Shown piece after piece: positions 15,893-39,234 of a stretch of 39,234 nucleotides of DNA. Each line of letters begins with the position of its first letter. The first letter of the stretch is position 1. Origin of the DNA: Flavobacterium aurantiibacter (GTDB lineage: Bacteria; Bacteroidota; Bacteroidia; Flavobacteriales; Flavobacteriaceae); assembly GCF_002251775.1 (NCBI RefSeq), contig NZ_NOXX01000181.1:1-39234 (forward strand), read 5' to 3'. The position numbers were made by a program, and so were the translations under genes. The notes beneath the pieces are model-generated. The model was not told the origin of the DNA and made no database searches. It saw only the letters and a program-made list of their open reading frames with translations.

Positions 15893-17341
15893 ATGTTATT
15901 AAAGCAGCAAACAATACAATTTAGTTCTCATTCTACGTTGTATGATTTAATAGTTCCAAAGGAAAATATATTAAGAAAAATCAATGATTTAATTGATTTT
16001 TCCTTTATTTATGATGAGTTGTTAAACAAATACTGCACAACAAATGGTCGTATGGCAGAAAGTCCTGTTCGTATGTTTAAGTATTTACTTCTTAAAACAA
16101 TTTACACTATTTCCGATGTAGATGTGGTGGAACGTTCTCAATATGATATGTCTTTTAAATATTTTTTGGATATGAATCCTGAAGACGATGTTATCAATCC
16201 AAGTTCGTTGACAAAGTTCAGAAAACTACGTTTGAAAGACACCGACTTATTAAATCTATTGATAAACAAAACAGTAACTATTGCTATTGAAAAAGGAATA
16301 ATTCGTTCGAAGTCTATTATCGTTGATGCCACTCATACTTTATCAAGATCTAATCCGTTTTTAGCCATCGATGTATTGAGAGAACGCTCCAAGTTACTTC
16401 GAAAAACAATATACACCTTTGACGACCAATTTAAAGAACGTATGCCGCAAAAGAATACCGACAATGATTTAGAAAAGGAGTTGGTTTATTGTAAAGAATT
16501 AGAAAAACGTATCGAAAACGAGCCATCTATAAGTTCGATTCCTGCAGTGAAAGAGAAATTAAACCTGTTAAAGGAAACTGTGGAGGATACTCAAGAAAAC
16601 CTAACTTTATCAAAAGATACCGATGCAAAAATAGGTCATAAATCTGCTGAGAGTTCCTTCTTTGGATACAAAACTCATTTGGCAATGACTGAAGAGCGCA
16701 TCATTACTGCAGCCGTAGTAACATCGGGTGAAAAAGGTGATGGACCAGAATTGCCTAAGCTTATAGAAATTAGTCAAGAAAACGGAATTGATGTAGACAC
16801 CATTATTGGTGATGCTGCTTACTCTGGAAAAGAAAATCTTAAAATCACAAGTGAACAAAATATTAAAGTAGTAGCAAAATTAAATCCATCAATAACACAA
16901 GGAAACAGAAAAGATGCCGATAAATTTGATTATAATAAAGATGCCGATAGGTTTGTTTGCCCAGCAGGACATTTGGCAATAAAAAAAGCACGTGGTGGAA
17001 GTAAAAATATTGGAACAAATCAAGTAGACACTTATTATTTTGATGTCGAAAAATGCAAATCTTGTCCTTTAAAAAATGGTTGTTACAAAGAAGGATCTAA
17101 AACTAAAACATATTCAGTATCTATAAAATCAGAACTACATCAAGACCAAATTTTTTTTCAAGAAACAGAATATTACAAAGAAAAAGCAAAACATCGATAC
17201 AAGATAGAAGCCAAAAATAGCGAATTAAAAAATGTATACGGTTATGATAAAGCAATTTCATACGGCATTACCAATATGCAAATGCAAGGTGCAATAGCAA
17301 TATTCACAGTAAACTTAAAAAGAATTCTCAAATTAATGTAG
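15893..17341 (+). CDS. IS1182-family transposase
   Basis: 482-residue DDE transposase that would cut and join the ends of this insertion sequence. The N-terminal DNA-binding part (about 1-110) includes NGRMAESPVRMFKYLLLKTI and MNPEDDVINPSSLTKFRKLR. Catalytic residues are the Asp of IIVDATHTLSRSNPF (near 150), the Asp of IIGDAAYSGKEN (near 305), and the Glu of RYKIEAKNSELKN. A cysteine cluster (CPAGH, CKSCPLKNGCYKEG) between the last two is typical of the family. The frame is uninterrupted and full length. The start is the first ATG, about 25 bases after a TATATTTA box. Confidence 0.93.
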   Translation: MLLKQQTIQFSSHSTLYDLIVPKENILRKINDLIDFSFIYDELLNKYCTTNGRMAESPVRMFKYLLLKTIYTISDVDVVERSQYDMSFKYFLDMNPEDDVINPSSLTKFRKLRLKDTDLLNLLINKTVTIAIEKGIIRSKSIIVDATHTLSRSNPFLAIDVLRERSKLLRKTIYTFDDQFKERMPQKNTDNDLEKELVYCKELEKRIENEPSISSIPAVKEKLNLLKETVEDTQENLTLSKDTDAKIGHKSAESSFFGYKTHLAMTEERIITAAVVTSGEKGDGPELPKLIEISQENGIDVDTIIGDAAYSGKENLKITSEQNIKVVAKLNPSITQGNRKDADKFDYNKDADRFVCPAGHLAIKKARGGSKNIGTNQVDTYYFDVEKCKSCPLKNGCYKEGSKTKTYSVSIKSELHQDQIFFQETEYYKEKAKHRYKIEAKNSELKNVYGYDKAISYGITNMQMQGAIAIFTVNLKRILKLM

Positions 17342-18557: not shown

Positions 18558-18749
18558 TTATTTCTTCTTACCTTGTTCGGTAAAAATATGATACCCATTA
18601 CCTAAATCAGTTGATTTTAATACTTTGGCTGAATCGAAAGATTTGGGAATTTTTACTTTAGCAGAATACACGCTTCCTTTAATCAAATTAGAGTTTTCCT
18701 CTCTTGATTTTAAAGGTGTATTGTTATATGTTAACTGCTTTGGCATCAT
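18558..18749 (-). CDS. 63-residue protein of unknown function, last gene of the unit
   Basis: I do not recognise this protein. It is short and basic, opening MMPKQLTYNNTPLKSREEN and ending in a compact segment DLGNGYHIFTEQGKKK. The start codon is 18 bases after the kinase stop, on the same strand, which supports it as the final gene of the unit. Repeat-rich non-coding DNA begins at once after its stop, so it could be a truncated remnant of a longer gene. A small accessory or kinase-substrate protein is possible, but there is no direct evidence. Confidence 0.5.
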   Translation of the reverse strand: MMPKQLTYNNTPLKSREENSNLIKGSVYSAKVKIPKSFDSAKVLKSTDLGNGYHIFTEQGKKK

Positions 18750-18767: not shown

Positions 18768-19841
18768 TTAAATCGAATTATTGTTTAATGCTTTCTTAAC
18801 AAGCGAATAAGCATCTTCAAATGTAGTGCTTTTTATGCAATAATCCTTTATCTGACGTTCCTTTGCACTTAATAAGCCTTTTTTGGTAGTTTTTAATTCA
18901 GCTGTTTTATCATCCTTACCTATTATAGAAATATTATACTCTTTATCGTCTTTTACACATTGCCAAGTGCAACCATTCTCTAATGGAATCATTTGCCAGT
19001 TGTGAGATATTTCAATCTTAGCAAGGTCATTTAAAAAATCTAATACATTTTGATAACGATGCTCAGGGTTAGGCTGTAAAGCTGTTCTTATATAATTTCT
19101 GAGTGTTTGGGGGATATGATGCAAATAAGCACTTCTATCAGGAAACTTCCCTTCAAATATCGCTTTGAGAAACTTGTCATTATCAAATATACCTTCCTTA
19201 TTTACAAACCTGTTTAACTGCTGCTTAAAAAAGCCATTACCATTACATAAACGATAAATTGTTAAACCTGCTTGAAATATATCGCTTTGATGGGTTATTT
19301 CATTTGAGTGAATTGCTTCGGGTGCTCTATGAAAATGATAAAACTTATCAATCAAGGTTAATCCTTCTTCATTTAGGTAATGTGCTAAGCCAAAATCGGT
19401 GAGGATTGCATCATTGCCATCAGACACTAAAATATTAGTTGGCTTTATATCGCAATGAATAAGTCTTTTGGAGTGAATATGATGTAGACCACTTAAAAAA
19501 TCAATACTGTATTTAACTATTTCGCCAACTGTGAGTGGTCTTTGATCTATTATACTGTTCAATGAGCCTTTTTGAAATAAAGGCATTGTAATATAAATAT
19601 ATTCTTCATCCTGGCAGGAATACTGAATTGGTGCGATATTAGGATGGTTTGAACTATACAACATCTTTGCTTCATCAAAGAATGATGAATCATCTTTAAA
19701 ATCAGATTTATTGATTTTCTTAACAACAATTTCAGTGTCTAACTGGTTATCGTGAGCAATGTGAACGGTTGAGTTCCTACCTTCCTGACCTATATCTTTT
19801 AATATTTTGAAGTGTAATGATGTTTGGGTATAATCAAGCAT
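18768..19841 (-). CDS. Hanks-type serine/threonine protein kinase
   Basis: 357-residue soluble protein kinase. The catalytic Lys is K41 (IVVKKI), the catalytic loop is HCDIKPTN (129-136, Asp131), DFG is at 149-151 and APE at 173-175, so it should be active. The glycine loop is degenerate (GQEGRNSTV, about 18-26). The kinase domain ends near 275. The remaining ~80 residues form a small separate domain (WQMIPLENGCTWQCVKDD onwards) that I do not recognise. There is no membrane segment or PASTA repeat, unlike housekeeping Bacteroidota or Gram-positive kinases. It starts nine bases after the 155-residue gene. Protein kinases occur in several phage-defence systems (for example Stk2 and PglW); here it may sense or relay an infection signal. 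Confidence 0.9.
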   Translation of the reverse strand: MLDYTQTSLHFKILKDIGQEGRNSTVHIAHDNQLDTEIVVKKINKSDFKDDSSFFDEAKMLYSSNHPNIAPIQYSCQDEEYIYITMPLFQKGSLNSIIDQRPLTVGEIVKYSIDFLSGLHHIHSKRLIHCDIKPTNILVSDGNDAILTDFGLAHYLNEEGLTLIDKFYHFHRAPEAIHSNEITHQSDIFQAGLTIYRLCNGNGFFKQQLNRFVNKEGIFDNDKFLKAIFEGKFPDRSAYLHHIPQTLRNYIRTALQPNPEHRYQNVLDFLNDLAKIEISHNWQMIPLENGCTWQCVKDDKEYNISIIGKDDKTAELKTTKKGLLSAKERQIKDYCIKSTTFEDAYSLVKKALNNNSI

Positions 19842-19850
19842 AAATTTATA

Positions 19851-20318
19851 TTATAAAGTTATTGAAGCAAAACCTACTAATATTGATTCTCTATGTTCCT
19901 TTGAAAATAATTTCCAATCAGTAATATTATTATAATCTTGCGAGCCATCAATAAACAAACCAATTGCACCATCATTACCAATACCTAATTTGGAAGCAAT
20001 AGACCCTTTTACACCAGTAAAATAATACTCTACATTGCTACTTGCTATTAATTCTTGAATGACTGCTTCTAACATTATTCTAAATAAGTCAGGGGACTGG
20101 GCATTGTTTTCAGTAATACGTATTCCAGCACGAACTACATTATACTCTTTGAATATATCTAACAAAGTCTTTCTTATATATTTTAGCTTATTAGGAATGT
20201 CAAATGACTTAGGGATAATCAATTCTTGATTAACCAATGAAAATGAATCATCTTCTTTTAACTCTATAATGGTATAAAAAACCTTATGCGGTGTACATCT
20301 TAATCCTGCTGCAATCAT
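19851..20318 (-). CDS. 155-residue protein of unknown function, possible RNase H/RuvC-like fold
   Basis: No family is recognised with certainty. The order of predicted elements is a beta hairpin (IAAGLRCTPHKVFYTIIE, then SFSLVNQELIIP), a helix, a strand (VVRAGIRITE), a long helix (DLFRIMLEAVIQELIAS), another strand (VEYYFTGVKG), and a final helix (KEHRESILVGFASITL). This resembles the RNase H/RuvC resolvase fold, but the usual first Asp is absent from the first strand, so it may be inactive or a different fold. It lies between the TrlF-type ATPase and the kinase with nine-base gaps on both sides, which strongly suggests that the three proteins work together. Confidence 0.75.
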   Translation of the reverse strand: MIAAGLRCTPHKVFYTIIELKEDDSFSLVNQELIIPKSFDIPNKLKYIRKTLLDIFKEYNVVRAGIRITENNAQSPDLFRIMLEAVIQELIASSNVEYYFTGVKGSIASKLGIGNDGAIGLFIDGSQDYNNITDWKLFSKEHRESILVGFASITL

Positions 20319-20327
20319 TTTTTTTAT

Positions 20328-23123
20328 TTACGAGAATATTGTTTTATAGCGTTCTGACCTTAGTTGAAATGCTTTTTCGCTTCCTTCCATTACATCACAA
20401 ATTTCTTTCTTAATGGCACTGTTTTCTACTGTTCCTGAATGAAGGACTTTAATGTCAGTAGTTGTTGAATCCATTGAAAGAATGTACTCAGCATCTCCAT
20501 TTACTGGAATATTAGCATTATGAGTAACTACTATAATTTGCCGTTTCTCTTTTGCTTTCTTTAAGCCTTTTACTACTAAGTCATAAACTAATCTATTATC
20601 AAGGTCATCTTCGGGTTGGTCGAGCAAAAGAGGTTCACTTCCAAAAGAAAGTAAAAATGTTAAAATAGCTGCCGTTTTTTGACCTGCTGATGCGGTTGAT
20701 AATGGTTTGAAACCTGTTGAACCTTCAGGTTTGTATTTTACGATAATCTCATCTTCGGGCATAAATAGCTCAATACTATCTATCTGACTTGGGCTTAATT
20801 TCCTCAGTGCATTTTTGAAATGACCGCCAAAATGTTCGGATGAAATATCGCTGTAGTGAGCATCTAAAATTGCCTTTTTACAATCTTTTATTTTATTCTC
20901 AACTATGCCAGTAAAACATAAGGTTTTTAATTTTTCAATATCGTCACCAAATGAAGAATCATTACTTATTATGGATCTTATCTGACTTTCAAAATCATCT
21001 TGGTTTCTAAAACCTTTTATTTCAATTTTAATATTATCAGCAGTAATATGGTCTGATATGAATGTAGAACGAATTGCTGTTATTTCTTTACAAACATCAA
21101 CATATTCCTTTAGTAGGTTAGTGCATTTAGCATTAATGTCAATGATTTCCTTTTCAATAGCCTCTATCGCCTTTAATTCTTGCTGTTTATCAATAACAAC
21201 TAATTTTAGCTGCTGATACTTAGAGAGAGCCTCTATTTCAGATTCAGATAGTGCTTTTTTCTTTTCTTCTATTTCAGCAAGAAGTGAACTAAGTGCTTTC
21301 TGCCAGTCAGAATTTTGAATAGCTAAATCGAATGTTGATTTTAATTTGCCAACCTCTGAAATTATTTTATCTAATTCCTTTTCCTGTTGAGCTATTGATT
21401 GAGTAGCATTTTGTATTAAAGTTTCTATTTCTACTCTGTGTGTTTCTTGGATATTTACGGTGTCAATATCTGGAATTGTAAAACTTTCCTTTATCTGCAC
21501 CAAAGCAATTTTTAGGTTATCAATTGATTCAGTGAATGATTTAATTGGTTTACGGTCTTCAACAAAAAAATCGGTGCTTTTAATGGTAGTGGTTATACCT
21601 GATTTATCTATGGCTTTGAGGGTATTGTTAATGTCCTCTAAGTCGGTTTTAATTTTAGTCTTACCGCCAATTGCCCCTTGTTTTGTTCTTAGGCTTGTCC
21701 TTGCTTCTAAAAATTCATTAGCAATTTTACTCTTTCGCTCCAATACATCTTGCAACACAGGAATAGCGTTATCAATCCTTTCACGTAAAGCATTTGGGTT
21801 TTTTGCTATCTCATAAATTTGTTTTTGTGAGTACTGCTCAAATTCAAATATTTCTAAAAGGTCTTTATCATCATCTTTTACTGAAGACCAAGAGCCATCA
21901 AGATATTTAAAGACTTCTATTAATTGACTTGAAGCGGAATTTATTTTACTTGCTACGATTTTATAGAGAACCTCTTTACGGACTATTTCTATTTTAACAA
22001 CAGATGTATTAAGGTCGAAAACACCTGTCGTTTCTTTTTTGTGAGATGTATCTGCTTTTTTATAAAATAAGTTTTGTTCTCTTAAAAGGTCATCAAAATC
22101 TTTAAGATTAACTGCTCTATTGAAAACACCTCTAATGAACCTTAAAATACTTGACTTCCCGCTACCTCTGCCGCCTATTATTGTATTTAGTTGTGGATTA
22201 AAGTCAATTTCTAAATCTTGCTTTTTTGTTAAATTAGTGCCAGATACTTTAAGGCTTTTAAACCAAATATCGGGTTGTTTATTGGGGTCATTATCCTGAA
22301 TGTCAAAATCATTTATTACTCTATGCTCGGGAAGTAGAAATGCTTGTCTTAGTCCTTCTAATGAAGGTGTTTCATCCATTTTTATCCAAGTGAAGCGTGA
22401 ACCAATGCCCCAAAGACCGTGTTGAGAATCACCTGCCTTATGTGGGTTGTCTGAAAATGTTAGGATAGAGATATTTTTTGCTTTAGCTAAATCAACTGGT
22501 TTTTTCCAAGCTACTTCATCAATGGTACTTTTTGTATTGCCATAATATTGTACTAATTGACTATGAAAATCGGCAGGAACTTCATTTATATAAAAAGCCT
22601 TATGAACGACTTGAACTGCTGTAATATCAGGACGCTCATAAAAATCAATTAAATTTTGATGACTTAAATTAAATATTCCAGAAAACTCATCTATATGGGC
22701 AGGAATAACTATAGCATTACATTTATCTCTTACAATATTAGCAACCTCTACAACTGATTTATTTGTTGAAGCCAATTGATCTCCATATACAGAGTGTTCT
22801 ATATCACATTTGCTTAAAAAACTTTTGACTTCTTCTTCTCCTTTAGATGGGTCAAATAAAATTAATAAATGAATTTTTGTTGAATCGCAAGTAATCTCTA
22901 CACCAGGGAATATGGTAATCGGTTTATCCTTTGCAGCTGCTTGAATTTCTTTTATACCTAAAGGTGTATTGTGGTCTGTAACTGCTACACAATGCAAACC
23001 TTGTTCAATAGCTCTATTAACCCATTGCTCGGGCGTAACTTCTCTATCAGCAAAACATTCGCTTGCTGTTGTATGTAAATGCAGGTCGCATTTGTACCAT
23101 TTTGAGCCTTTAAATTCTATCAT
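20328..23123 (-). CDS. TrlF-type protein: PHP phosphoesterase fused to SMC-like ATPase
   Basis: 931-residue fusion. The N-terminal PHP domain (about 8-230) has metal ligands in CDLHLHTTAS (His15, His17), VTDHNTP (Asp50, His51), FPGVEI (Glu76), PAH (His143) and FSDNPH (Asp225, His228). An ABC/SMC-type ATPase follows: Walker A GGRGSGKSS at 317-325, long coiled-coil middle (about 450-720), signature SAGQKTA at 812, Walker B LLLDQPEDDLDN at 832-843, and the H-loop VVTHNANIP. This matches the family annotated as TrlF. Likely role: ATP-driven DNA scanning coupled to phosphodiester cleavage. It starts three bases after the Res stop. Confidence 0.88.
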   Translation of the reverse strand: MIEFKGSKWYKCDLHLHTTASECFADREVTPEQWVNRAIEQGLHCVAVTDHNTPLGIKEIQAAAKDKPITIFPGVEITCDSTKIHLLILFDPSKGEEEVKSFLSKCDIEHSVYGDQLASTNKSVVEVANIVRDKCNAIVIPAHIDEFSGIFNLSHQNLIDFYERPDITAVQVVHKAFYINEVPADFHSQLVQYYGNTKSTIDEVAWKKPVDLAKAKNISILTFSDNPHKAGDSQHGLWGIGSRFTWIKMDETPSLEGLRQAFLLPEHRVINDFDIQDNDPNKQPDIWFKSLKVSGTNLTKKQDLEIDFNPQLNTIIGGRGSGKSSILRFIRGVFNRAVNLKDFDDLLREQNLFYKKADTSHKKETTGVFDLNTSVVKIEIVRKEVLYKIVASKINSASSQLIEVFKYLDGSWSSVKDDDKDLLEIFEFEQYSQKQIYEIAKNPNALRERIDNAIPVLQDVLERKSKIANEFLEARTSLRTKQGAIGGKTKIKTDLEDINNTLKAIDKSGITTTIKSTDFFVEDRKPIKSFTESIDNLKIALVQIKESFTIPDIDTVNIQETHRVEIETLIQNATQSIAQQEKELDKIISEVGKLKSTFDLAIQNSDWQKALSSLLAEIEEKKKALSESEIEALSKYQQLKLVVIDKQQELKAIEAIEKEIIDINAKCTNLLKEYVDVCKEITAIRSTFISDHITADNIKIEIKGFRNQDDFESQIRSIISNDSSFGDDIEKLKTLCFTGIVENKIKDCKKAILDAHYSDISSEHFGGHFKNALRKLSPSQIDSIELFMPEDEIIVKYKPEGSTGFKPLSTASAGQKTAAILTFLLSFGSEPLLLDQPEDDLDNRLVYDLVVKGLKKAKEKRQIIVVTHNANIPVNGDAEYILSMDSTTTDIKVLHSGTVENSAIKKEICDVMEGSEKAFQLRSERYKTIFS

Positions 23124-23126
23124 ACT

Positions 23127-25799
23127 TTACCCTTTACACTTCGTTGCTAAATAATTAATAGACACCGTTCTACTCACTTCGTTGTGTGGTAGTATTAAGT
23201 ACTTCCATTCTTTACCTTGGTTTTCGGCTGTATATTCCGATGCGTATTTACAGAAACGTTCTGCTGCTACTTTTTTTGCCAATACGGTTTCTTCTTCGGT
23301 TTGGTCGGAACGTTTGACTTCAAGCATATAAATGGTGCTTTCAGTTTCTACAATAAAGTCAGGTTCATACCTTTTTGAGTTGTTATCCCAATAAATCCTA
23401 AATTGATTAGGTGCTGGTCTTAACCACTTGATTACTGTTGCATCATTTTCTAATACAAAGGCTAAATCTTGTTCGGCTTTACTATCAAACTTGTATTCAA
23501 AATGACAGGCTTTTTCAAAACCTCTAAATACATATTTAGGAATCATATTCGTAGGGCTTACAATGTCTCGATAGTCTTTGTAGCCTGCATTTACCAATGA
23601 TGAGAAACTCCATTGCTCTATGCGAATAAAAGGAAACACTCTTGGGGCAACATAATCTGCTGAATGCAACTGAAAGTGCTGTTTCATTTGATTATATACC
23701 TTTTCCGCTATGGCTGCTTTGAATTGGAAGATTGCCGAAGGCAATTCTTCTTCGTTGCTTATATTGGCTTTGATAGCTTCGTAGGATTGGGTTGCTAAAT
23801 GATACAACAACTCGGCATTTTCATCATAATCAATTTCTGGGTAATCAATTAATTCTGCAATGATGAGTTTGATAGGATTACCATACGAACCGCTTGATTT
23901 TGCTTTGAGTGTTTCTACTTGCTTATCTTTTAAGCCCATTCGGATAATTTCTTGCTCTAAGGCTTGGAAATTGAATCCTGTAATGTCTAAATCAAATTGT
24001 TTGAACTCGGCTCTTGTTTCGCCTTGCACCAAGTCCATACGTGGTATTTCAATGATATTCTTTTTGTATTCAGTTACCATTGTATCATACACCTCTTTGG
24101 CTTCTGCTACAATTTGAGCTGCAAATAGATTTCCTTGACCTTCAGATAGGTTTTTCTCTACTTGCCGTATTACTTTTCGCTTTACCTCCTCTTTACTTAA
24201 ATCTTCTACTCGTCTAACTTCGGGTAAACTGCCAAAATCAGGAAGTACATTGATTATTGCTTTTTTAGCATCTAAGTTGTTTTGTGCCTTTTGCTTGTCT
24301 TGTGGGTTGACAATGACATTGATTTTCTCTTGCTCCTTTACAAAGGTTTGCTCCATCACTGGCTGAGAGGTAACTACTACGGTTTTGGTAGATAAATCTT
24401 CTTCGGTTATTTCTACAAAACTCATTTTGTTTAATACCGAATTAGGGTCTTGGGCTGCCTCGATAACAGCATTGAAGTTTTCGTGTGCTACTACCGTTAA
24501 TTTATCAATTTTATCTACTCCTGTTCGTTTGCCCTCATAAGGTAATCTTAATCCTCTACCAATAGTTTGTTCTACCAAAATACCTGCATTGGCGGCACGA
24601 AGTGGCACAATGGTATAGAGGTTGGTTACATCCCAACCCTCTTTGAGCATATTTACGTGGATAACAATTTCTATTTCATTATCTGGACTTTCTAAAGAAA
24701 TAAACTGTTGTTCAATATCTTCTTCTTTTTTGGTTGACGAATCTATTTGTAACACTTTGCCTTTGTATTGTCCATCATAAAACCCATCTGTATTGATGAG
24801 TTCGTATATTTCTTTGGCGTGGGATATGTCTTTACAAACTACTAAAATGAAAGGTTTTACCAATTTCACTTCGTTGTTTTTGGAATAGATTTCCAATTCG
24901 TTCTTTGTGTCTTGGTGTATGCTTATGGCATCTTCTAATTTGATGATTTCAACTTCACGATCACTTAAAGAGCCTTTTTGGAAATTCTTACGAGTGGCAA
25001 TAGCCGGGTTCTTTACATATTTACCATCTGACAAGGCTTGGGCTAAGGAATATTCAAACACTATGTTTTTGAATTGCTTGCCCTTCTCATCAAATGGGGT
25101 TGCTGTCATTTCTATACCTAAAATGGGCTTTAGCTCATTGATGGCATTTTTAGAAGCATCTGCGTGGTAGCGGTGTGCTTCGTCCATTAGAATGACTAAA
25201 TCCTCCAAACCTGATAAATATTCCCAATACGATTGCCCTAAATACTCGGATAGTCTTTTGATTTTTGGGGCTAAACTTACTCCGCCTTGTCTTGTACCTC
25301 TGTTATCGGAATTGAACTTGGCAATATTGAAAATATTGATGCGAATTTCGGAATCTGAAAATAATGCACCTTGTTGAGCATAGTTGTCGCCTGTAATTAC
25401 TACGGGTCTATTGTGTACAAATTCTGATATGCCATTAAACACATATTTGTGATAGGCAGGATTGCCAAAATCTTCTATGAGTTTGTCGTAAATAGTAAGG
25501 TTGGGAGCTAAAATGAAAAAGTTTTTTACACCTTTTTGCAAGTATAAATAAGCTACAATAGCACCCATTAATCGGGTTTTACCTACACCTGTGGCAATAG
25601 AAAAAGCAATGGAAACAAAGTCCCTTTCAAAGTCTGTACAAGTAGGAAAATGAGCCTTTACCTTTTCTAATTCTGCTGCTAAATCAACTTCTTTTTTTAG
25701 CTCTAATTCTTGACAAAGTTGAGCCACAATATCGAGTGAATCTTGAAGCGGTTCACGAAGTGATAAGCGTTGTTTTATATTATTGGCAATTGTATTCAT
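23127..25799 (-). CDS. Type III-like restriction subunit (Res): helicase and nuclease
   Basis: 890-residue protein with an SF2 helicase core and a C-terminal nuclease. Motifs: Walker A IATGVGKTRLMGA (TGVGKT at 70-75), DEAHRYHA (206-213), MTATPFDE (231-238), and QTIGRGLRLPYEGKR in motif VI. The C-terminus has a PD-(D/E)XK site: Asp814 in YEPDFIVE, then Glu827 and Lys829 in YMLEVKR. Type III Res enzymes translocate or signal along DNA after Mod recognises an unmethylated site, then cut. The gene follows mod by nine bases, as in type III systems. All key residues are present. Confidence 0.92.
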   Translation of the reverse strand: MNTIANNIKQRLSLREPLQDSLDIVAQLCQELELKKEVDLAAELEKVKAHFPTCTDFERDFVSIAFSIATGVGKTRLMGAIVAYLYLQKGVKNFFILAPNLTIYDKLIEDFGNPAYHKYVFNGISEFVHNRPVVITGDNYAQQGALFSDSEIRINIFNIAKFNSDNRGTRQGGVSLAPKIKRLSEYLGQSYWEYLSGLEDLVILMDEAHRYHADASKNAINELKPILGIEMTATPFDEKGKQFKNIVFEYSLAQALSDGKYVKNPAIATRKNFQKGSLSDREVEIIKLEDAISIHQDTKNELEIYSKNNEVKLVKPFILVVCKDISHAKEIYELINTDGFYDGQYKGKVLQIDSSTKKEEDIEQQFISLESPDNEIEIVIHVNMLKEGWDVTNLYTIVPLRAANAGILVEQTIGRGLRLPYEGKRTGVDKIDKLTVVAHENFNAVIEAAQDPNSVLNKMSFVEITEEDLSTKTVVVTSQPVMEQTFVKEQEKINVIVNPQDKQKAQNNLDAKKAIINVLPDFGSLPEVRRVEDLSKEEVKRKVIRQVEKNLSEGQGNLFAAQIVAEAKEVYDTMVTEYKKNIIEIPRMDLVQGETRAEFKQFDLDITGFNFQALEQEIIRMGLKDKQVETLKAKSSGSYGNPIKLIIAELIDYPEIDYDENAELLYHLATQSYEAIKANISNEEELPSAIFQFKAAIAEKVYNQMKQHFQLHSADYVAPRVFPFIRIEQWSFSSLVNAGYKDYRDIVSPTNMIPKYVFRGFEKACHFEYKFDSKAEQDLAFVLENDATVIKWLRPAPNQFRIYWDNNSKRYEPDFIVETESTIYMLEVKRSDQTEEETVLAKKVAAERFCKYASEYTAENQGKEWKYLILPHNEVSRTVSINYLATKCKG

Positions 25800-25808
25800 A
25801 TCCTAATT

Positions 25809-27464
25809 TTAAAATAATGAGGTTTGGTCGTCTGACTTATTTTTATCTCTAATGGCTTGTACGCTTATTTCTTCAATACTATCTTCTGCATCTTCATTGC
25901 TAGCATCCACAGGTATATTGATAATATTTAAGCTATAATCTTCTTTACCATATTCGCATCTGCCTAAGAGCATTAATGGAATTTTCTTAATGGTGATGTT
26001 GCCAAACTTACCTTTGCATTCTTTTTGGAAAGACTTACAACAAATTAGCAATGTTTCGCCTGGTTGCATTTCGTCTTTAATGCTGTCTAAGGCTTCTACG
26101 GTAAGGAATTGGGTAGTCGTAAAAATAAAATCCTGCTCACTACTTTGCCCTTGTTTCCAATAGGTGCTTTCGTGGGGTTGGTATTTAAAACCCTCTTGCT
26201 TTGCCATAGCTGCTGCCAACATATCGGCATTATACTCTTGGCTAATCACCCAATTGCCAAACTTATCTTGCTTTAATAAACTGGGTGCAAGCGTGTAGAA
26301 TTTGAAACCACCTCCACCTTGCCAGTTTACAGCTTTGCTGATGCCGCCTTGCTCGCCATCTACTACTTGTTTTAGCCTTGGAAAACAATGCGTTTTGGCG
26401 TGTTCACCCAATTCTACGCCTATGTAACGTCTACCCATTTTGTGAGCTACTGCAGCAGTTGTACCAGAACCGAGGAAAGAATCGAGAACGAGGTCGCCTT
26501 CGTTGCTTCCCAACATTAAAACCCTTTCGAGTAAACGTTCAGGTTTTGGCGTTCCGAATGGGTCATCAGGAAATAAATCTTTTACCTCTTTTTTTGCTTG
26601 TTGATTATCCCCAACTTCATCTCTCCACCAAATAGTTAGAGGTGTAATACCATCTTGAACTTCTGTTAGGAATTTTTTGATTCGTGGCACATTGTTACCA
26701 TCTGCACCAAACCAAATACGGTTATCTTCAACTAACTCTTCATATCGTTTTAAACCAAATTGCCAACTTCTTCCCTTTGGTGGCCAGAATTTATTACCAT
26801 TGGGTGATTGGATTTCATATATATAAGCATCAGATGGCGTCTTTACTTGTATTGGTTGCGAAGCCCAAGGGCCTCTTGGGTCATTATCTAAATTTTTGTA
26901 ACCCTTGTTTTGCTCTTCAGTTCTCGGTAGAAGATTTAATTGAAATTTATCTCGGTTTTTACAATAGACAATAACAAAGTCGTGATTATCCGAAAAGAAT
27001 TTTGCATCATTACTTCGGGTATGTTTTTTATGCCAAATAACACTTGCTATGAAATTTTGCCTTCCGAATATCCCATCACACATTACTTTTAAATAATGAG
27101 CTTCATTATCATCAATACTTATCCAAATAGAGCCATCATTACTTAAAAGGTTTCTCAAAATATCCAATCTCGGCTTCATCAAACTCAACCAAAGCGAATG
27201 TTCTACGCCATCATCATAATGCTCAAAGGCGTTGCCTGTATTGTAGGGTGGGTCTATATAAATACACTTTACTTTGCCTGCATAGTCTTGTTCAAGGGCT
27301 TTTAAGGCAAGGAGGTTGTCACCGTGTATGAGCATATTGGGGCTGTTGGGGTCGCCATAGCTATACTCGGGATTTTCTATTAGAATACGAGGTTCGAGCT
27401 TAGGTTCTTCGCCTTTGCCTATCCAAGTGAGTTCGAGTTTTTGAAGTTGTTTTTTATTGCTCAT
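25809..27464 (-). CDS. Type III-like N6-adenine DNA methyltransferase (Mod)
   Basis: 551-residue beta-class DNA methyltransferase. The catalytic motif IV DPPYNTGNAF is at 71-80 and the SAM-binding motif I LDSFLGSGTTAA at 327-338, in that order. The region between them (about 130-320) would hold the target-recognition domain. DPPY indicates N6-adenine (or N4-cytosine) methylation, and the type III arrangement favours adenine. Its start overlaps the Doc-like gene's end by 11 bases and the Res gene follows after nine. In type III systems Mod alone methylates one strand of an asymmetric site, and with Res it directs cleavage. The target sequence cannot be read from the protein. Confidence 0.92.
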   Translation of the reverse strand: MSNKKQLQKLELTWIGKGEEPKLEPRILIENPEYSYGDPNSPNMLIHGDNLLALKALEQDYAGKVKCIYIDPPYNTGNAFEHYDDGVEHSLWLSLMKPRLDILRNLLSNDGSIWISIDDNEAHYLKVMCDGIFGRQNFIASVIWHKKHTRSNDAKFFSDNHDFVIVYCKNRDKFQLNLLPRTEEQNKGYKNLDNDPRGPWASQPIQVKTPSDAYIYEIQSPNGNKFWPPKGRSWQFGLKRYEELVEDNRIWFGADGNNVPRIKKFLTEVQDGITPLTIWWRDEVGDNQQAKKEVKDLFPDDPFGTPKPERLLERVLMLGSNEGDLVLDSFLGSGTTAAVAHKMGRRYIGVELGEHAKTHCFPRLKQVVDGEQGGISKAVNWQGGGGFKFYTLAPSLLKQDKFGNWVISQEYNADMLAAAMAKQEGFKYQPHESTYWKQGQSSEQDFIFTTTQFLTVEALDSIKDEMQPGETLLICCKSFQKECKGKFGNITIKKIPLMLLGRCEYGKEDYSLNIINIPVDASNEDAEDSIEEISVQAIRDKNKSDDQTSLF

Positions 27465-27921
27465 TGTCGTTTATATTTTGATTAGCTAAATGATTCATTT
27501 TAGCCTGTATAATTTTCATTTTTAATTCTTCCGAATAGTCATACTCATATAAAATAGAAGTAACTATCTCCTTTAATAAATCTCGGTCTATAATATTATC
27601 TGCAACATCTACCACAATATTTTCCATTTCTAAAATGAATTTTGACACTAAGCCTTGAAGGTTGTTTACCGTAAGAAAATAAGCTGCTACAGCAATAGAA
27701 GATCTTTTATTGCCATCATTGAAACAGTGATTTTTGTTAAATGAAAAAATGAGATGCGTTACTTTATCTTCCAATTCTGGGTAATAAAAGTCGTTTTGAA
27801 CGTGGTCAAGCGTGCTGTCAATTAACCCATTATCTCTAATACCCATAAAGCCACCTGATTCACGAATAATATTATCGTGTACCTCAATTGTAAATTCAAC
27901 TGTAAAGTATTGAAACGCCAT
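27454..27921 (-). CDS. Doc/Fic-family protein (death-on-curing type)
   Basis: 155-residue Fic-fold protein. The active-site loop HCFNDGNKR (65-73) keeps the His, the acidic/Asn position and the NKR tail of the HxFx(D/N)(A/G)NKR motif. The N-terminus YFTVEFTIEVHDNIIRESGG and the phrase IRDNGLIDSTLDH are typical of Doc relatives. Doc phosphorylates elongation factor Tu and stops translation; related Fic proteins AMPylate targets. No Phd-type antitoxin precedes it. Instead the upstream gene, two bases away, encodes a 358-residue DNA-binding-like protein that may play that part. Its end overlaps the Mod start by 11 bases, so it is translated with the modification enzyme. Confidence 0.87.
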   Translation of the reverse strand: MAFQYFTVEFTIEVHDNIIRESGGFMGIRDNGLIDSTLDHVQNDFYYPELEDKVTHLIFSFNKNHCFNDGNKRSSIAVAAYFLTVNNLQGLVSKFILEMENIVVDVADNIIDRDLLKEIVTSILYEYDYSEELKMKIIQAKMNHLANQNINDNEQ

Positions 27922-27923
27922 CT

Positions 27924-29000
27924 TTATCTATCTTTTAAGCGTTTAAAAACTTCTAACAATTCAGGATTTTCAATTACCCTATCAATTAAAGACTTGCTCT
28001 TATCACCAAGAAAACGGCTGTAATCCTCTTTACTTAAAGCTCCAATGTAGTTTTCAAGGCGTTTGTGAATAATATTACGCAAACCATAGTCACGAGAAGC
28101 CATTTTGGTACAAGCATCTTCAATTAGTGGTATCCAATGCCTTTTCTTTGAAAATCGCATTATTAAGACATTCAATTCAGAGGGTGTAAGTTTTCTGCCT
28201 AAAGATTCTGCTTTTTCCTTCATTTCATCAGCAATACCAACCTCAAAAGATGCTATTAGCTTTAATACTTCGGCATACATTGTATCTCTTGGATTGTCTT
28301 TTTCCTCAAGATTTAATATAGCCTTGTATTCTTTTGCATTTTCTTTAAAAATGGCTTGGTAGATGGCATCTGTGTAAACCGCATATTTGTAATTGCCCAT
28401 TTCTAAATACAGGTTAAGAGCATTGGTAAACTCTTTTCTGTATATAGGTTCTCGGGTAATGGCTACTAAAAACTCCTCATCCCTTTGATTTATGAATTTA
28501 GTTGACCCTCCAATTTTTTGGTTAAGTGTATCAATTACAATATCTAAAATCTTACTTCTTAACCTTTTGGCATTTTCACTCTCGGAGAGAAGCATTGCAA
28601 TATTTAAAAAAGCCCTGAAATTGAATACCGCCAAACTTTTAAGTCGCTTAAATGATTGATTATCAGCACCTTGTTTTGACAGAGGGAAATCAGTTTCCTT
28701 CTGTGAAAGGTCGTCAGCAGAAGTAAGTAATGGGCCGAATAAGTCCTTAAACTCTTTCAATTTTTGACCCTTAATCACTTGATAACCATTGTGTTTTACT
28801 TCATCTTCATTTTCGTTAAGAATATTTGTTAAAGTACGAGTAGTAACATCAAAAAAATCAGCAACCATTTTGGAAGTAAAAAGATATTCGCCTTCATATA
28901 AAAGTCCTACTAATCCGATATGAACTTGTATTTTCTCAATTGCCTCTGTATTGTTGAGAATATTTTGTCTGTCTATTGCAGATTTTGTTAAGTCTTTCAT
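27924..29000 (-). CDS. 358-residue HTH / RhuM-like protein, possible partner of Doc
   Basis: No firm family call. Residues of about 38-80 (YLFTSKMVADFFDVTTRTLT, then NILNENEDEVKHNGY) look like a DNA-binding HTH that faintly resembles the N-terminus of RhuM (virulence RhuM/KilA-N-like) proteins. RLKSLAVFNFRAFLNIAMLL (about 120-140) echoes the conserved second block of that group. The C-terminal half is helical and ends RVIENPELLEVFKRLKDR. RhuM-like and Fic/Doc genes are often neighbours, which suggests a toxin-neutralising or targeting role. It follows the SNF2 gene by one base and precedes the Doc-like gene by two. Confidence 0.75.
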   Translation of the reverse strand: MKDLTKSAIDRQNILNNTEAIEKIQVHIGLVGLLYEGEYLFTSKMVADFFDVTTRTLTNILNENEDEVKHNGYQVIKGQKLKEFKDLFGPLLTSADDLSQKETDFPLSKQGADNQSFKRLKSLAVFNFRAFLNIAMLLSESENAKRLRSKILDIVIDTLNQKIGGSTKFINQRDEEFLVAITREPIYRKEFTNALNLYLEMGNYKYAVYTDAIYQAIFKENAKEYKAILNLEEKDNPRDTMYAEVLKLIASFEVGIADEMKEKAESLGRKLTPSELNVLIMRFSKKRHWIPLIEDACTKMASRDYGLRNIIHKRLENYIGALSKEDYSRFLGDKSKSLIDRVIENPELLEVFKRLKDR

Positions 29001-29001
29001 A

Positions 29002-31923
29002 TTAAATCATTTTCCATTTTATGGTGAATAACTCTGTGGTGTTAACTTCTTGCTTTAAGCGTCTTTCAATCTCATCTAATAGGTTTTCCTTGCGGTCGTC
29101 TATAGTGTCTTGAGCTTCAAAAAGGTGTTGGCGTTTTTCGCTTCGTTTCTTTTCTAAATCTTTAATGGCTCTTTGGGCTTTAACTTTGGCTTCAAGATTG
29201 AGCATTTTTTTAGCTTCGGATTTACGGAGTTTGATTTCTGCATCTAAGTCCTTTATTTCCTTATCCAAACTCAATTTCATATCATCTGCCCATTGGTCGA
29301 GTTTGTCCATTTCGGTATCAAAAAAATCTTTGTTACGGTTGGCATTGTCTGCAATAACGTTTTGCGTTTCGCTGTACAATACTTCTACTAAGGTCTTTTT
29401 AATATCCTCTGGTGCATAAAGCGTTTGCTCTTCCGTAGCTTGAATAGAAAAGAAACGTTGGGCTATTTCATTGTCAATGTTTTCACCATTATCTGTAATG
29501 CAAGCCGTTATTAAAAAATCCTCAAACTCAAAAGAATTGATTTCTAAATGACTTACCTGTAACCAACCCGATTGCCCAATGAATTTTTCCAATGCTGTTA
29601 CTTTGGTTGGAGTGTTGGAATAATCAAAGGTTAATTCTTTTGTTACGGTATTGAGTTGCTTACAAGCTCCTAAAATGGCTTTTGCCAACTTATGACCTAC
29701 ACGATAAATATTGGTATCATCAGGCACATCAATATCCGATTTTCGCTGCCCTTGTTTGGGCTTCAAAATCATATAAGGACCTTGATGAATAGAAACATCT
29801 GGGAATGGGTTTTTCTTTAATGTAAAAGTGTAGTTTTCATCATCAAACTGGGCTGAGCTGTTTAGATAGAATTTCGTAGTATCCCATAAACGTTCTTCAA
29901 AACGGTTTAGGTTTTCAGTACTTTCAAAAAGATTGGTCTTGAGTTTTTCTCTTACTTCTTCATCAAAATTTTCAATGAGCACTTTTCTGGTTTCCTGTAC
30001 TCTTTCTGAAATATCGGGTTTGAGTTCTTGTTGTAGCTCGTCAAAAGCGGTTTGTATTTCTTCTGTAGTACGGCATTGCTGATAAATAGATGCAATTCTT
30101 TTTTCAAAATCAACACCGTTGCCAATACTACCTAAAACTTCATCAGAAGCCCCAAAAACCCCATCAAATAAGCGGAATTTTTGGTCTAATAACTCATAAA
30201 CACGCTGGTCAGCTGCATTGGCTTTATTAAGGAAATTCACTACTACTACATCAAATTTTTGACCGTAACGGTGGCATCTTCCAATACGCTGTTCAATACG
30301 TTGTGGATTCCAAGGTAGGTCAAAATTGATAACTAAAGAACAAAATTGTAAGTTGATACCTTCGGCTGCTGCTTCGGTAGCTACCATTATGGTTGCTTCT
30401 TCTTTAAAGTAATCAACAATTGCTGCCCTTTTATCAGCCGTTAATGACCCTGTTAAAATATCAGTTCCTTGATGTTTTTTTAAGTAAGCTGAATAAATCT
30501 CTTTCGATTTTGGATCTGTATTACTACCGTTGAATTTTACAACCATATCTGCATAACCTCTTGCTTCTAAAAGATTGCAAATAAAATCCTGTGTTCTTCT
30601 TGACTCTGTGAAGATTAAGGCTTTTTGATTAGCACCTAATGATTCCAATGCCTTAAAGCCTCTTTCTAATGCGGTAAAAAGTTGCTCCGCTTTTGAGTTC
30701 TTTCTAATGCGTTGAGCCAAGGCTCTGAACTTTTCTAAATCGGCTAATTCACATTTAACTGCTTCAATATCTTCTTCGGTATAAACTACTTCCTCAAAAT
30801 TGTCATCGGCTTCACTTTCATCTTCTTCTTCGCTTTCCCATTCGTCTTGAATTTCATCATAGGTTTCAAAATCAATGGCTATTGTATTTTCTTCCTCAAT
30901 AGCGTTGTGATTCGAAATGATATTTTCTAAGCGTTTAACTAAGGCATCTAAAGTTCCATAGATAGCATAAGTAGATGAAGCTAATAGCTTGCGGAGTATT
31001 AAGGTCATTAATTGCCTTTGACTGAAAGGCAAAGCATATAATTTTGGTCTTTGCAAATAGTCTGTTACCCAATTGTAAAGCGTTGTTTCATCTTCATTGG
31101 GGAAATACTCCTGAACTAAAGGTTTACGCTCAGTGTATTTAATATACTCTAAAACTTGTCTTCTTAGCGTACGCTTGCAAATAGGCTGTAAACGGTTTCT
31201 TAAATCAGTATAGTTTTCTTCATCAATATTTCTGCTAAACTGACTTTTGAAACTTTTTAAGTCGCCAAAAATGTAGGGGTCAATAAGGCTAACTAAGCCG
31301 TATAACTCTAAAATAGAATTTTGCAAAGGTGTTGCGGTAAGCAACACTTTTTTGCAATGGTCTAAGGCATCTTTGATGCCGTTGCCTATTTTATTTGAGG
31401 GTTTATAAACATTGCGTAAGCGGTGTGCTTCGTCAATAATTACTAAATCCCAGTTAATATGTTTAAGATAAGGTGCTTTGTTCTTGGCAAAATGATACGA
31501 GCAAATGATAATCGTATCTTCTTGATTAAATGGGTTTAAATTACCCTCTTTAATTAAATTGTTAAAAGACTTTGCTTCAAGAATAACTGACGGCAAATAA
31601 AATTTATCTGCTAATTCTCTGTTCCATTGCTTACGCAAGTTAGATGGACCAATAATCAATAATTTTCTTTTTCTTTCTGCCCATTGTTGCGATAATATGA
31701 TACCGGCTTCAATGGTTTTCCCTAATCCAACCTCATCAGCCAGAACAGCACCTTTTGATAATGGTGATTTAAAAGCAAAAAGTGCCGCTTCTACTTGATG
31801 AGGGTTTAAGTCAACTTGAGCATCCTGTAAGGATGCGGTAAGTTTTCCAATGTCGTTGGCTGGTAATTGCCTTGTTAAATCATAGGCAAAATATTTAGCG
31901 TGGTATGCTGATAAATTATTCAC
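29002..31923 (-). CDS. SNF2-family helicase/translocase
   Basis: 973-residue SF2 ATPase of the SNF2/RapA-like group. Walker A lies in LADEVGLGKTIEAG (61-74) and motif II IIDEAHRLRN is centred on DEAH 164-167. LTATPLQNS follows, and the C-terminal helicase half has ATEAAAEGINLQ and PWNPQRIEQRIGRCHRYGQ. An acidic insert rich in Glu and Asp lies near residues 350-385, and the last ~110 residues form a charged coiled coil. It should move along double-stranded DNA rather than unwind it. The start is GTG at 31921-31923, overlapping the XRE gene by eight bases. SNF2 proteins occur in defence loci (for example DrmD of DISARM), but other DISARM genes are absent here. Confidence 0.92.
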   Translation of the reverse strand: MNNLSAYHAKYFAYDLTRQLPANDIGKLTASLQDAQVDLNPHQVEAALFAFKSPLSKGAVLADEVGLGKTIEAGIILSQQWAERKRKLLIIGPSNLRKQWNRELADKFYLPSVILEAKSFNNLIKEGNLNPFNQEDTIIICSYHFAKNKAPYLKHINWDLVIIDEAHRLRNVYKPSNKIGNGIKDALDHCKKVLLTATPLQNSILELYGLVSLIDPYIFGDLKSFKSQFSRNIDEENYTDLRNRLQPICKRTLRRQVLEYIKYTERKPLVQEYFPNEDETTLYNWVTDYLQRPKLYALPFSQRQLMTLILRKLLASSTYAIYGTLDALVKRLENIISNHNAIEEENTIAIDFETYDEIQDEWESEEEDESEADDNFEEVVYTEEDIEAVKCELADLEKFRALAQRIRKNSKAEQLFTALERGFKALESLGANQKALIFTESRRTQDFICNLLEARGYADMVVKFNGSNTDPKSKEIYSAYLKKHQGTDILTGSLTADKRAAIVDYFKEEATIMVATEAAAEGINLQFCSLVINFDLPWNPQRIEQRIGRCHRYGQKFDVVVVNFLNKANAADQRVYELLDQKFRLFDGVFGASDEVLGSIGNGVDFEKRIASIYQQCRTTEEIQTAFDELQQELKPDISERVQETRKVLIENFDEEVREKLKTNLFESTENLNRFEERLWDTTKFYLNSSAQFDDENYTFTLKKNPFPDVSIHQGPYMILKPKQGQRKSDIDVPDDTNIYRVGHKLAKAILGACKQLNTVTKELTFDYSNTPTKVTALEKFIGQSGWLQVSHLEINSFEFEDFLITACITDNGENIDNEIAQRFFSIQATEEQTLYAPEDIKKTLVEVLYSETQNVIADNANRNKDFFDTEMDKLDQWADDMKLSLDKEIKDLDAEIKLRKSEAKKMLNLEAKVKAQRAIKDLEKKRSEKRQHLFEAQDTIDDRKENLLDEIERRLKQEVNTTELFTIKWKMI

Positions 31924-32203
31924 CTATAATATTTTTTAATGCTATTCTTATTGCTTTTTCTGCTTGCGGTTCACTTTCTACCAAATGAGCAACTTGGTCT
32001 GCTAACCACAAGGCAATTAATTCTTCTGGATTGATTTTGAATAATTGAGCAAGAGCCAAAACGTGTTCACGTTTTGCTGTTTTTTCGCCTCTCTCAATTT
32101 TACTCACAAGAGCTGTGTCAACATCTAATTCAGCCGCAATGTGCCGAAGTAACATTTCCTTTTCTTCTCTTGTATTTCTAATTAAATCCCCGAATTTGTT
32201 CAT
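31916..32203 (-). CDS. XRE-family transcriptional regulator, probable control protein
   Basis: 95 residues from the ATG at 32203, beginning MNKFGDLIRNTREEKEMLLR. The lambda-repressor-like HTH spans about 5-60 (HIAAELDVDTALVSKIERGE). The C-terminal part is a short helical extension (NPEELIALWLADQVAHLVES). An upstream frame reaching 32281 is rejected, because its first 26 residues are encoded by the promoter region. Small XRE proteins often act as C-proteins that time restriction after entry into a new host, and this one is the first gene of the ten-gene unit. Its end overlaps the SNF2 GTG start by eight bases, tying helicase synthesis to regulator translation. Confidence 0.88.
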   Translation of the reverse strand: MNKFGDLIRNTREEKEMLLRHIAAELDVDTALVSKIERGEKTAKREHVLALAQLFKINPEELIALWLADQVAHLVESEPQAEKAIRIALKNIIGE

Positions 32204-32297
32204 AACTAATGTTTGTTTGAAATCAATTTGTTGATTATTGACAAATATACAACAAACAAAAGAAAAACGAACAAAAAACAATAACGACTTTTCAACA
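32204..32297 (-). promoter_or_regulatory. Promoter and operator region of the ten-gene unit
   Basis: On the minus strand TATATTTG (32242-32249) matches the Bacteroidota -7 box. A TTTG at 32272-32275 lies 22 bases upstream, near the -33 position. Around the box, TGTTTGTTGTAT and ATCAACAAATTG/TTTCAAACAAAC place TTTGTT/AACAAA half-sites on both sides, a likely binding site for the XRE regulator. The leader would be about 30 bases. This is the only sizeable gap before 18558 on this strand, so the whole unit depends on it. Confidence 0.6.
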
Positions 32298-36000: not shown

Positions 36001-37107
36001 TTATAATTTGATTTTGATTTTGGTGGCAGCTTCTACCTTTTTTTCGTTGATAACCTTTGCGTATATCTCGGTAGTAGAAAGGTTTTTATGCCCTAATAAT
36101 TTTGAAACTGTGTAAATGTCTGTGCCTAAAGTCAACTGAAGCGTAGCGTAAGTATGACGAGCACAATGGAACGTGATGTGCTTATTAATGCCTGCATCAA
36201 TTAACCAATCCTTTAAATAGGTTTTGTTCCAATTACCATATTTAAGCCCTGTAAATACTCTTTCCTTTGGTTCTTTTTGTTCGCCTAATAATTCTCTTGC
36301 TTCTTCTGCAATAGGTAAGGTTTCAGCTCCGTTTGTTTTTTGCTGACGAAAACGAATAAAGTAACCTAAATTATCAGAGTGCTGAATTTCTGACCATTTT
36401 AGCTTCTCAATATCCGACCATCTTAAACCAGTCAAACAAGAAAAAATGAACATACGCTTTAGCGTTTCATTTCGGCAATGGGTGTTGGCTAACTTTTGTA
36501 ATTCTTCAAGGGTTAAAAATTCTCGTTCTACATCATCCTGTGGGAAGGGTTCTACCTGTTCAGCTGGATTGAATTTGATTAAGCCTTCTTTTAATGCTTG
36601 TTTTAGTGCAGCTCTTAATTTATTAAAATAACTGTACTTGGTATTTAGTGAAATGCCTTCACCTGTTTTGGTTTTGGCTTCATAGTCCAAGTAATCTTTG
36701 AACCCTTCAACCCATTCTTTATCTAAACGTTCAAACGTAACATCTTTGGGGTTGTATTCTTTAATCAGTATACGAACTGCATTCCAATTGCCGTAATTAC
36801 CCAAACTGGCTTTTTTCTTTTCTGTAAGTGCATAAAAAAACTCAAAGAAGCTGCCTTTCAATTTCTCTTTATCTCGGAAACCGTAAATACTGTTTTGAAC
36901 TTCTAAATGTCTTTTGCTTCGGATGCTTTCAGCCAATTCAAGGATTTTTTTGTTCTCGTCCTTTTGGGCTTTGGTTAAACTTCCTTTATCGGGTTCAGGT
37001 GTGAGGTATAAACCTAAATGTTCATACTCTCTTTTTCCTTGGTCGTAGTAGTCAAGGTAGAGGGTTATTTTATTCCCCTTTTTGCGTTGTCTTAATGCTA
37101 TTTTCAT
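36001..37107 (-). CDS. Tyrosine recombinase (integrase) of the island
   Basis: 368-residue site-specific recombinase. It has an N-terminal arm-DNA-binding domain (about 1-75, IALRQRKKGNKITLYLDYYD), a SAM-like core-binding domain (about 85-180), and a catalytic domain (about 195-368). Catalytic residues are Arg229 (TGLRWSDI), His314 and Arg317 (HCARHTY), His340 (LLGHKNLS) and nucleophile Tyr349 (TEIYAKV). The type is common on Bacteroidota integrative elements. It lies about 630 bases from the mnmE attachment site, with one HTH gene between. It should recombine the mnmE-end att copies to insert or excise the island. Confidence 0.95.
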   Translation of the reverse strand: MKIALRQRKKGNKITLYLDYYDQGKREYEHLGLYLTPEPDKGSLTKAQKDENKKILELAESIRSKRHLEVQNSIYGFRDKEKLKGSFFEFFYALTEKKKASLGNYGNWNAVRILIKEYNPKDVTFERLDKEWVEGFKDYLDYEAKTKTGEGISLNTKYSYFNKLRAALKQALKEGLIKFNPAEQVEPFPQDDVEREFLTLEELQKLANTHCRNETLKRMFIFSCLTGLRWSDIEKLKWSEIQHSDNLGYFIRFRQQKTNGAETLPIAEEARELLGEQKEPKERVFTGLKYGNWNKTYLKDWLIDAGINKHITFHCARHTYATLQLTLGTDIYTVSKLLGHKNLSTTEIYAKVINEKKVEAATKIKIKL

Positions 37108-37733: not shown

Positions 37734-37751
37734 CTACTTCCCGATACAAAA
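37734..37751 (-). repeat. attR: mnmE 3' end at the integrase side
   Basis: The last six codons of mnmE (TTTTGTATCGGGAAGTAG, F-C-I-G-K-stop) match the isolated copy at 13558-13575 with three synonymous changes. The mnmE frame stays intact through the site, so insertion restores the protein end. Confidence 0.8.
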
Positions 37752-39152: not shown

Positions 39153-39162
39153 CTTTTTTGTG

Positions 39163-39170
39163 CAAAAGTA
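39163..39170 (-). promoter_or_regulatory. Putative -7 box for mnmE
   Basis: On the minus strand this reads TACTTTTG, matching TAnnTTTG. It ends 10 bases before the mnmE ATG at 39152, so the transcript would have almost no leader. This supports the shorter start. Confidence 0.4.
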
Positions 39171-39193
39171 AGTTATAATTTGCTTGTTTTTTA

Positions 39194-39234
39194 TGCCGGC
39201 CGGGCGCATCCGCTGTTGCAACTCCGCGTGCAGC
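39194..39234. repeat. GC-rich repeat at the right window edge
   Basis: The reverse complement reads CGCGGAGTTGCAACAGCGGA, then a CGCCCGGCCGG run. It is loosely similar to the GCGCAAAGGATTGCAATGGA and CCCCGGCCGGG phrases at 241-390. It is probably another copy of a dispersed intergenic repeat, cut by the window end. Confidence 0.35.

Follow-up and report, generated by a model that had tools for sequence, protein, structure and literature searches.

The RuvC-like protein and the Stk-type kinase

We analyzed a 39,234-nucleotide stretch of the Flavobacterium aurantiibacter genome (contig NZ_NOXX01000181.1, positions 1 to 39,234; here called the window), focusing on two adjacent genes, for a 155-amino-acid protein and a protein kinase, that together with a small open reading frame (ORF) behind them form a candidate three-gene module. 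The two genes close a minus-strand run in an integrated element that encodes, in order, a DUF3987/PriCT protein, a helix-turn-helix (HTH) protein, a DrmD-like helicase, PDC-M59A, a Fic protein, the type III restriction-modification subunits Mod and Res, TrlF, the 155-aa ORF, and the kinase. A first-pass annotation of this DNA had joined the last three genes, described as an SMC-like ATPase with a PHP phosphoesterase, an unknown small protein, and an active-looking kinase with an extra C-terminal domain, into a possible stand-alone signaling module behind Res with nine-base gaps. The layout is as described: all three genes are intact on the minus strand, 9 nt separate TrlF from the 155-aa ORF and this ORF from the kinase gene, and 3 nt separate Res from TrlF. 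The reading of the ATPase also held, as it matches TrlF (NCBIfam NF045780) at 643 bits against a cutoff of 350, with PHP and SMC/AAA domains; for Ppl (NF042955), it scores 361 bits, below the cutoff of 1,000.

The 155-aa ORF is likewise real, but its product is recognizable as RuvC-like and can no longer be called unknown. It matches the PHROGs profile phrog_3875 ("RuvC-like Holliday junction resolvase") at an E value of 3.6e-30; no Pfam, NCBIfam, or PADLOC model matched above its curated cutoff, the RuvC profile PF02075 gave no match at an E value of 0.1, and a sequence search of the PDB returned one match (E, 0.93). An AlphaFold2 model built from 77 sequences has a pLDDT of 94.5 and a pTM of 0.90. 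RuvC structures rank first in a Foldseek search with this model (E, 6.1e-8), and VIA aligned 143 to 151 residues to eight RuvC chains (Z, 16.9 to 17.9; rmsd, 2.8 to 3.0) in a match spanning model residues 1 to 155, while non-RuvC rows reach a Z of 13.7 at most. In this model, the RuvC fold extends through the entire 155-aa protein.

We take the catalytic residues of E. coli RuvC to include Asp7 and Glu66. In a profile alignment with 16 true RuvC sequences, R7 of the window protein falls on the first catalytic Asp, in a match of modest strength (probability, 55%; E, 1.2e-4; residues 3 to 62); a forced global alignment, weak overall (probability, 5.5%; E, 0.002), keeps this register without gaps to R67, which aligns with the catalytic Glu. 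Across alignment A3, which holds the window protein and 76 of 91 distinct RuvC-like sequences (15 near-duplicates omitted and the fragment L067 never included), Arg occupies position 7 in all 77 sequences and position 67 in 74, the other 3 having Lys, and position 144 is Glu throughout (77/77). Our genome and viral scans used patterns at approximately residues 80 to 91 and thereby selected in part for conservation at those residues, but not at positions 7, 67, and 144; in ten family members found without the patterns, R7 and E144 are likewise invariant and position 67 is Arg (7 sequences) or Lys (3 sequences). With these two catalytic acids replaced by basic residues, cleavage by this protein is unlikely. 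The family is also acidic (median pI, 5.6; range, 4.4 to 9.0) whereas the 16 true RuvC proteins are basic (pI 8.9 to 9.8), which makes plain DNA binding less likely than for RuvC. Compared with the RuvC resolvase (PF02075), then, the window protein shares the full-length fold (Z, 17 to 18) but differs in its two substituted acids, its acidic pI, and its lack of a PF02075 match. An active Holliday junction resolvase or nuclease that attacks phage DNA under control of the kinase would agree with the fold and with the RuvC-like names given in PHROGs, in one phage record, and in 2 of 15 listed RefSeq rows; with Arg at the first catalytic Asp and Arg or Lys at the Glu in all 77 sequences, and with the low pI, we regard it as highly improbable and rejected it on the residues.

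The first-pass description of the kinase was accurate. The protein matches Pkinase at 141 bits, and the catalytic residues K41, E57, D131, N136, and D149 are invariant in 68/68 sequences (alignment A4, 67 of 86 distinct kinases and the window's). Its AlphaFold2 model (pLDDT, 93.6) combines a kinase fold with a beta-rich C-terminal domain of six strands and one helix at approximately residues 283 to 353. The residue preceding the catalytic Asp is Phe in 60/68 kinases and Arg in none, so this is a non-RD kinase in the usual meaning of that class. Fold-search rows (VIA) cover model residues 5 to 281, that is, the kinase domain, short of the C-terminal domain; the top rows are tyrosine kinases (JAK), yet CaMKII ties with them, so the ranking says nothing about specificity. 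PADLOC PD-T4-6 models score at most 126 bits, mostly over the kinase domain, as many kinases would, and the MADS kinase MAD6 (NF047741) scores 113.5 bits, below its curated cutoff of 460.

Among known systems, the nearest is Stk. The window kinase matches phrog_2361 over residues 19 to 355 (E, 1.3e-71), covering both the kinase and the C-terminal region, and phrog_2361 includes the stk-annotated gene from the immunity region in phi24B and other Stx phages; the window kinase and Stk of 933W and the Stx phages thus belong to the same kinase-plus-C-terminal family. In published passages on phage 933W, Stk is said to abort infection by HK97, to be activated upon HK97 infection with little or no activity in uninfected cells, and to be cotranscribed with cI (PMC6356687, PMC3681748, PMC3564112, PMC8008677); stk is located after cI, and pRM drives its expression in the lysogen (PMC3430580, PMC3564112). 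As in the window, stk-annotated phage records carry a RuvC-like gene directly upstream of stk, and in the JLK-2012 phage record a 54-aa ORF lies directly downstream. The settings differ: stk of the Stx phages follows cI, whereas the window copy is the tail of a Bacteroidota defense operon, behind TrlF. The window kinase does not follow a prophage repressor gene; the nearest HTH gene among those scanned is at 31916-32281. Three enterobacterial prophage-like loci (L006, L007, and L012) carry an annotated DUF3024 gene that separates the RuvC-like gene from the repressor.

Conservation of the pair and of a small third gene

A full-length kinase adjoins the 155-aa family in 54/55 loci of a scan of species genomes (the exception is cut after 17 codons), in 58/65 loci of a viral-contig scan (4 others broken or cut and 3 at contig ends), and in 11/12 loci from plasmids, phages, or the phylum search. 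All loci lacking a full-length kinase in these three sets are accounted for by six broken or cut kinases and three contig ends. The 65 viral loci came from an alignment-based scan, a first scan with the single 155-aa protein having returned nothing. The 132 loci other than the window include three places fetched twice (L014/L057, L015/L072, and L016/L071), and three genome-scan loci repeat phylum-search loci; with these repeats, and with near-identical E. coli prophages making up many of the viral loci, the pairing counts are not independent events.

Within the phylum, the 155-aa family occurs in 5 of the 395 genomes searched, each time with the kinase, and all five kinases above 230 bits in these genomes have the RuvC-like gene; among 60 relatives searched, only the window's own genome has the family. 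At an E value of 1e-35, the kinase matches in 94/395 genomes, and a partner was sought at the seven best places. Two of the kinases found are more distant (178 to 185 bits); each is immediately preceded by an ORF, of 151 codons in one case and 153 in the other, and only one of these two ORFs matches the RuvC-like model (27.9 bits). In the distant clade (L201 and L202), no third small gene was seen. The other listed kinase matches score at most 170 bits and are mostly the kinase domain of longer proteins. At L202:7726-10661, in a genome of the window's genus (G395), a gene with an AGS_C domain (a C-terminal sensor known from adenylyl/guanylyl cyclase-type enzymes) stops 12 nt before a distant pair of RuvC-like gene and kinase.

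Five plasmid records carry the RuvC-like gene, four with an intact kinase and one with a broken one, and 4/4 plasmid kinase records at an E value of 1e-40 are among these five. Fourteen phage records carry the RuvC-like gene, and exactly these have a kinase match extending over at least 80% of the query; five further records match the kinase over 71 to 75% at 26 to 30% identity and lie outside this comparison. A search of plasmids with the module DNA returned three short kinase matches. Among complete E. coli genomes, the stretch of RuvC-like gene, stk, and small gene matches in 223/5,426 (221 at at least 80% of its length), always on the chromosome; in the 15 E. coli rows listed, the kinase is annotated in 14 and the partner is named "RuvC family protein" in 2. 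RuvC-like and kinase distances correlate across 68 loci (Mantel r, 0.87; 0/2,000 permutations), which shows coinheritance, yet not independently of shared ancestry. The module genes mostly overlap and are carried by phages, plasmids, and other elements; organism names listed for the loci cover Bacteroidota, Salinibacter, Fodinibius, Bacillota, a cyanobacterium, and Pseudomonadota.

The kinase gene is usually followed by a third, small gene, for which we required 40 to 85 codons and a start between −10 and +60 nt from the kinase end. An ATG-started ORF of this kind follows the kinase in 45/54 genome loci (51/54 with any start), compared with 109/754 ends of other ORFs of at least 200 codons in the same loci (ATG only), and the small ORF follows in 56/58 viral loci. 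Its products are very basic (pI above 9 in 48/51); an Arg motif at the N terminus and a Gly/aromatic motif at the C terminus recur in most of them. The gene diverges between clades. That the third gene is coding and under purifying selection is supported by its substitution pattern: dN/dS is 0.10 to 0.30 in 11 of 13 close pairs, some of which share a member. The copy in an E. coli plasmid-prophage matches phrog_4063, a family of unknown function; four other copies tested, including the window's, have no PHROG match. In the window, the ORF behind the kinase ranks first of 163 small ORFs against a family model built without it, and jackhmmer with the small protein returned only this ORF. The first-pass annotation had been right to place the 155-aa protein with the kinase and had missed this third gene.

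TrlF does not belong to the conserved set. The same annotation had proposed a circuit in which TrlF, the RuvC-like protein, and the kinase act as one signaling system, with the TrlF ATPase scanning DNA ends; their common strand and 9-nt gaps, and probably a single transcript, speak for this. Yet a phmmer search (E, 1e-8) of the 132 other loci with the 155-aa family revealed no TrlF; 111 of these loci include at least 3 kb upstream of the RuvC-like gene. TrlF occurs in 7/390 phylum genomes at an E value of 1e-60, the window's included, and neither a RuvC-like gene nor a kinase lies within the 1.5-kb flanks of its seven loci in the six other genomes. Larger stretches around these seven loci contain no RuvC-like gene (one contig ends just upstream of TrlF), and at one of them two large kinases (631 and 782 aa) lie approximately 6 and 8 kb away.

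A locus in Sphingobacterium allocomposti (L018, 10001-12017) bears on the same question. Its RuvC-like gene is intact and shares 87% identity with that of the window, and its kinase is cut after 17 codons; the DNA of the locus is 82.7% identical to that of the window from 6 nt before the RuvC-like ATG to approximately 17 codons into the kinase. This identity begins just past the position of the TrlF stop, and TrlF was not found in the locus, so the cassette moved without it. We therefore consider the one-system reading very improbable and rejected TrlF as a module member: the trio is a juxtaposition, seen among these loci only at the window, and TrlF is a separate defense gene. What stands of the stand-alone module is the kinase and its partner, which recur without TrlF and apart from type III genes. 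Window Mod, Res, or DrmD was matched in 3/132 other loci (L018, L023, and L027), with all three in L018, and we rejected a general link of the pair to type III or DISARM genes. The ORF after the truncated L018 kinase resembles a putative transposase. Elsewhere, five distant TrlF homologs (L196 to L200) are each directly followed by a gene of 415 to 434 codons, three of them overlapping; the one follower analyzed, in L196, has a Schlafen AlbA_2 domain and a RecG C-terminal-like domain, a possible TrlF-Schlafen two-gene system.

Proposed function and alternative readings

We think it reasonably probable that the RuvC-like protein, the kinase, and the small basic protein form a mobile Stk-type abortive-infection (superinfection-exclusion) module, with the window copy acting like Stk of 933W. 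Under this model, the kinase would stay quiet until a second phage starts to grow in the cell; it would then become active, phosphorylate proteins of the cell or the phage, and so end that infection. Homology to Stk supports the kinase as a candidate abortive effector and, with it, the phage response anticipated in the first-pass annotation. The RuvC-like subunit, with the fold kept but the catalytic acids lost, is most likely a noncutting regulator; it would sense a product of phage recombination or replication, either a protein or branched DNA, and relay this to the kinase. This part of the model has moderate support; the regulator role and the class of trigger are inferred. Any sensing is more likely to lie in the RuvC-like partner than in TrlF, and we consider both a protein and DNA as candidates for what is sensed. 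The small basic protein may be an inhibitor or adaptor of the kinase, these being its likeliest roles.

A narrower version of the model can be drawn from HK97. Orf41 of HK97 is reportedly the trigger of Stk; a literature search on this point returned nothing relevant. The HK97 record assigns Gp40 to HK97p30 and Gp43 to Kil, with erf and two nested "recombinase" ORFs between them, so that by gene order gp41 is presumably erf or one of the nested ORFs. A gp41 slot on the gene for the Erf annealing protein or on these ORFs would fit a resolvase-fold sensor. The dead RuvC might then serve as bait or sensor for phage recombination in a widespread, so far unrecognized immune module of three genes, and binding of a phage recombination protein or intermediate would free a kinase held by a small basic, pseudosubstrate-like peptide; we hold this version tentatively and consider it doubtful.

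Several points weigh against an exclusion module of this kind. Loss of nuclease activity is inferred from residues, and the low pI of the RuvC-like family makes simple DNA sensing less likely. The window's small ORF scores only 4.5 bits (E, 0.41) against the family model, so its membership rests on position and a weak match, and 2/13 pairs of the third gene depart from the pattern of purifying selection (one dN/dS of 1.00 and one undefined). Stk is said to be a tyrosine kinase, a specificity that the window kinase may not share. Probable cotranscription with TrlF across a 9-nt gap makes local cooperation possible. Finally, L018, the closest other copy, is preceded by a related DrmD gene and by Mod and Res genes that are more distant, and a looser tie of the pair to these genes in the window-L018 lineage may exist.

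Alternatively, the module could be a kinase toxin held by an antitoxin, either the small basic protein or the RuvC-like protein, that stabilizes mobile elements, with defense as a side effect, similar to HipBST or KKP. The compact and mostly overlapping genes travel on phages, plasmids, and elements, and the third gene is short and differs from clade to clade. KKP has, in one published passage, been described as a prophage-encoded, toxin-antitoxin-based kinase system (PMC11341870). A structured RuvC fold with invariant residues would be unusual for an antitoxin, however, and Stk has a reported infection-triggered role; L018, which keeps an intact RuvC-like gene after loss of its kinase, says little either way. 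Taken together, we judge the toxin-antitoxin reading unlikely.

The Stk-type exclusion module that we favor resembles KKP of Pf prophages and Stk2 of Staphylococcus in being kinase based and, for KKP, prophage encoded. The passage that describes them gives KKP two kinases and a phosphatase, presents Stk2 as a single host locus, and, unlike the arrangement seen here, names no RuvC-like partner for either (PMC11341870).

Stk is an early known phage-exclusion kinase; its family and exclusion role are known already, as is the RuvC-like label of the partner in PHROGs, phage records, and 2/15 listed RefSeq rows. The RuvC-like partner, the third gene, and their conservation were not described in the literature searched; the primary 933W Stk papers lay outside this search, and an earlier mention of the neighboring ORFs is possible. 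The passages that we consulted attribute sensing by Stk to one kinase gene. If the kinase is instead part of a conserved three-gene module that extends from Bacteroidota to Bacillota and Pseudomonadota and has a dead resolvase as its partner, Stk sensing becomes directly testable, and many prophages and defense islands gain a function.

The host element and its other genes

Coordinates of the module and its surroundings are collected in Table 1. The element genes measured have a GC content of 0.30 to 0.39, compared with 0.46 for mnmE. On our best reading, the module hitchhikes at the 3′ end of a defense operon, within a defense-rich element integrated beside mnmE.

Table 1 Features of the F. 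aurantiibacter window
Feature	Position	Strand	Support or remark
Third module gene, 63-aa ORF	18558-18749	minus	18 nt past kinase
Stk-type protein kinase, 357 aa	18768-19841	minus	kinase domain ~11-275, C-terminal domain ~283-353
RuvC-like protein, 155 aa, predicted nuclease-dead	19851-20318	minus	proposed kinase regulator/sensor
TrlF-family PHP + SMC-like ATPase	20328-23123	minus	NF045780; neighbor outside module
Type III Res subunit	23127-25799	minus	PDLC03648, E 7.8e-158; context
Type III Mod methyltransferase	25809-27464	minus	PDLC03636, E 6e-199; context
Fic protein (PDC-M59B), PDC-M59A, DrmD-like helicase	27454-31923	minus	context
HTH gene	31916-32281		
Integrase of element	36001-37107	minus	Phage_integrase, 79 bits
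mnmE	37734-39221		MnmE helical domain, 163 bits; beside integrase

On the far side of the module, a DDE transposase gene (15893-17341) may mark the other edge of the island. The DrmD-like helicase, PDC-M59A, and the Fic protein PDC-M59B lie directly upstream of Mod and Res, an arrangement that may represent a compound system.

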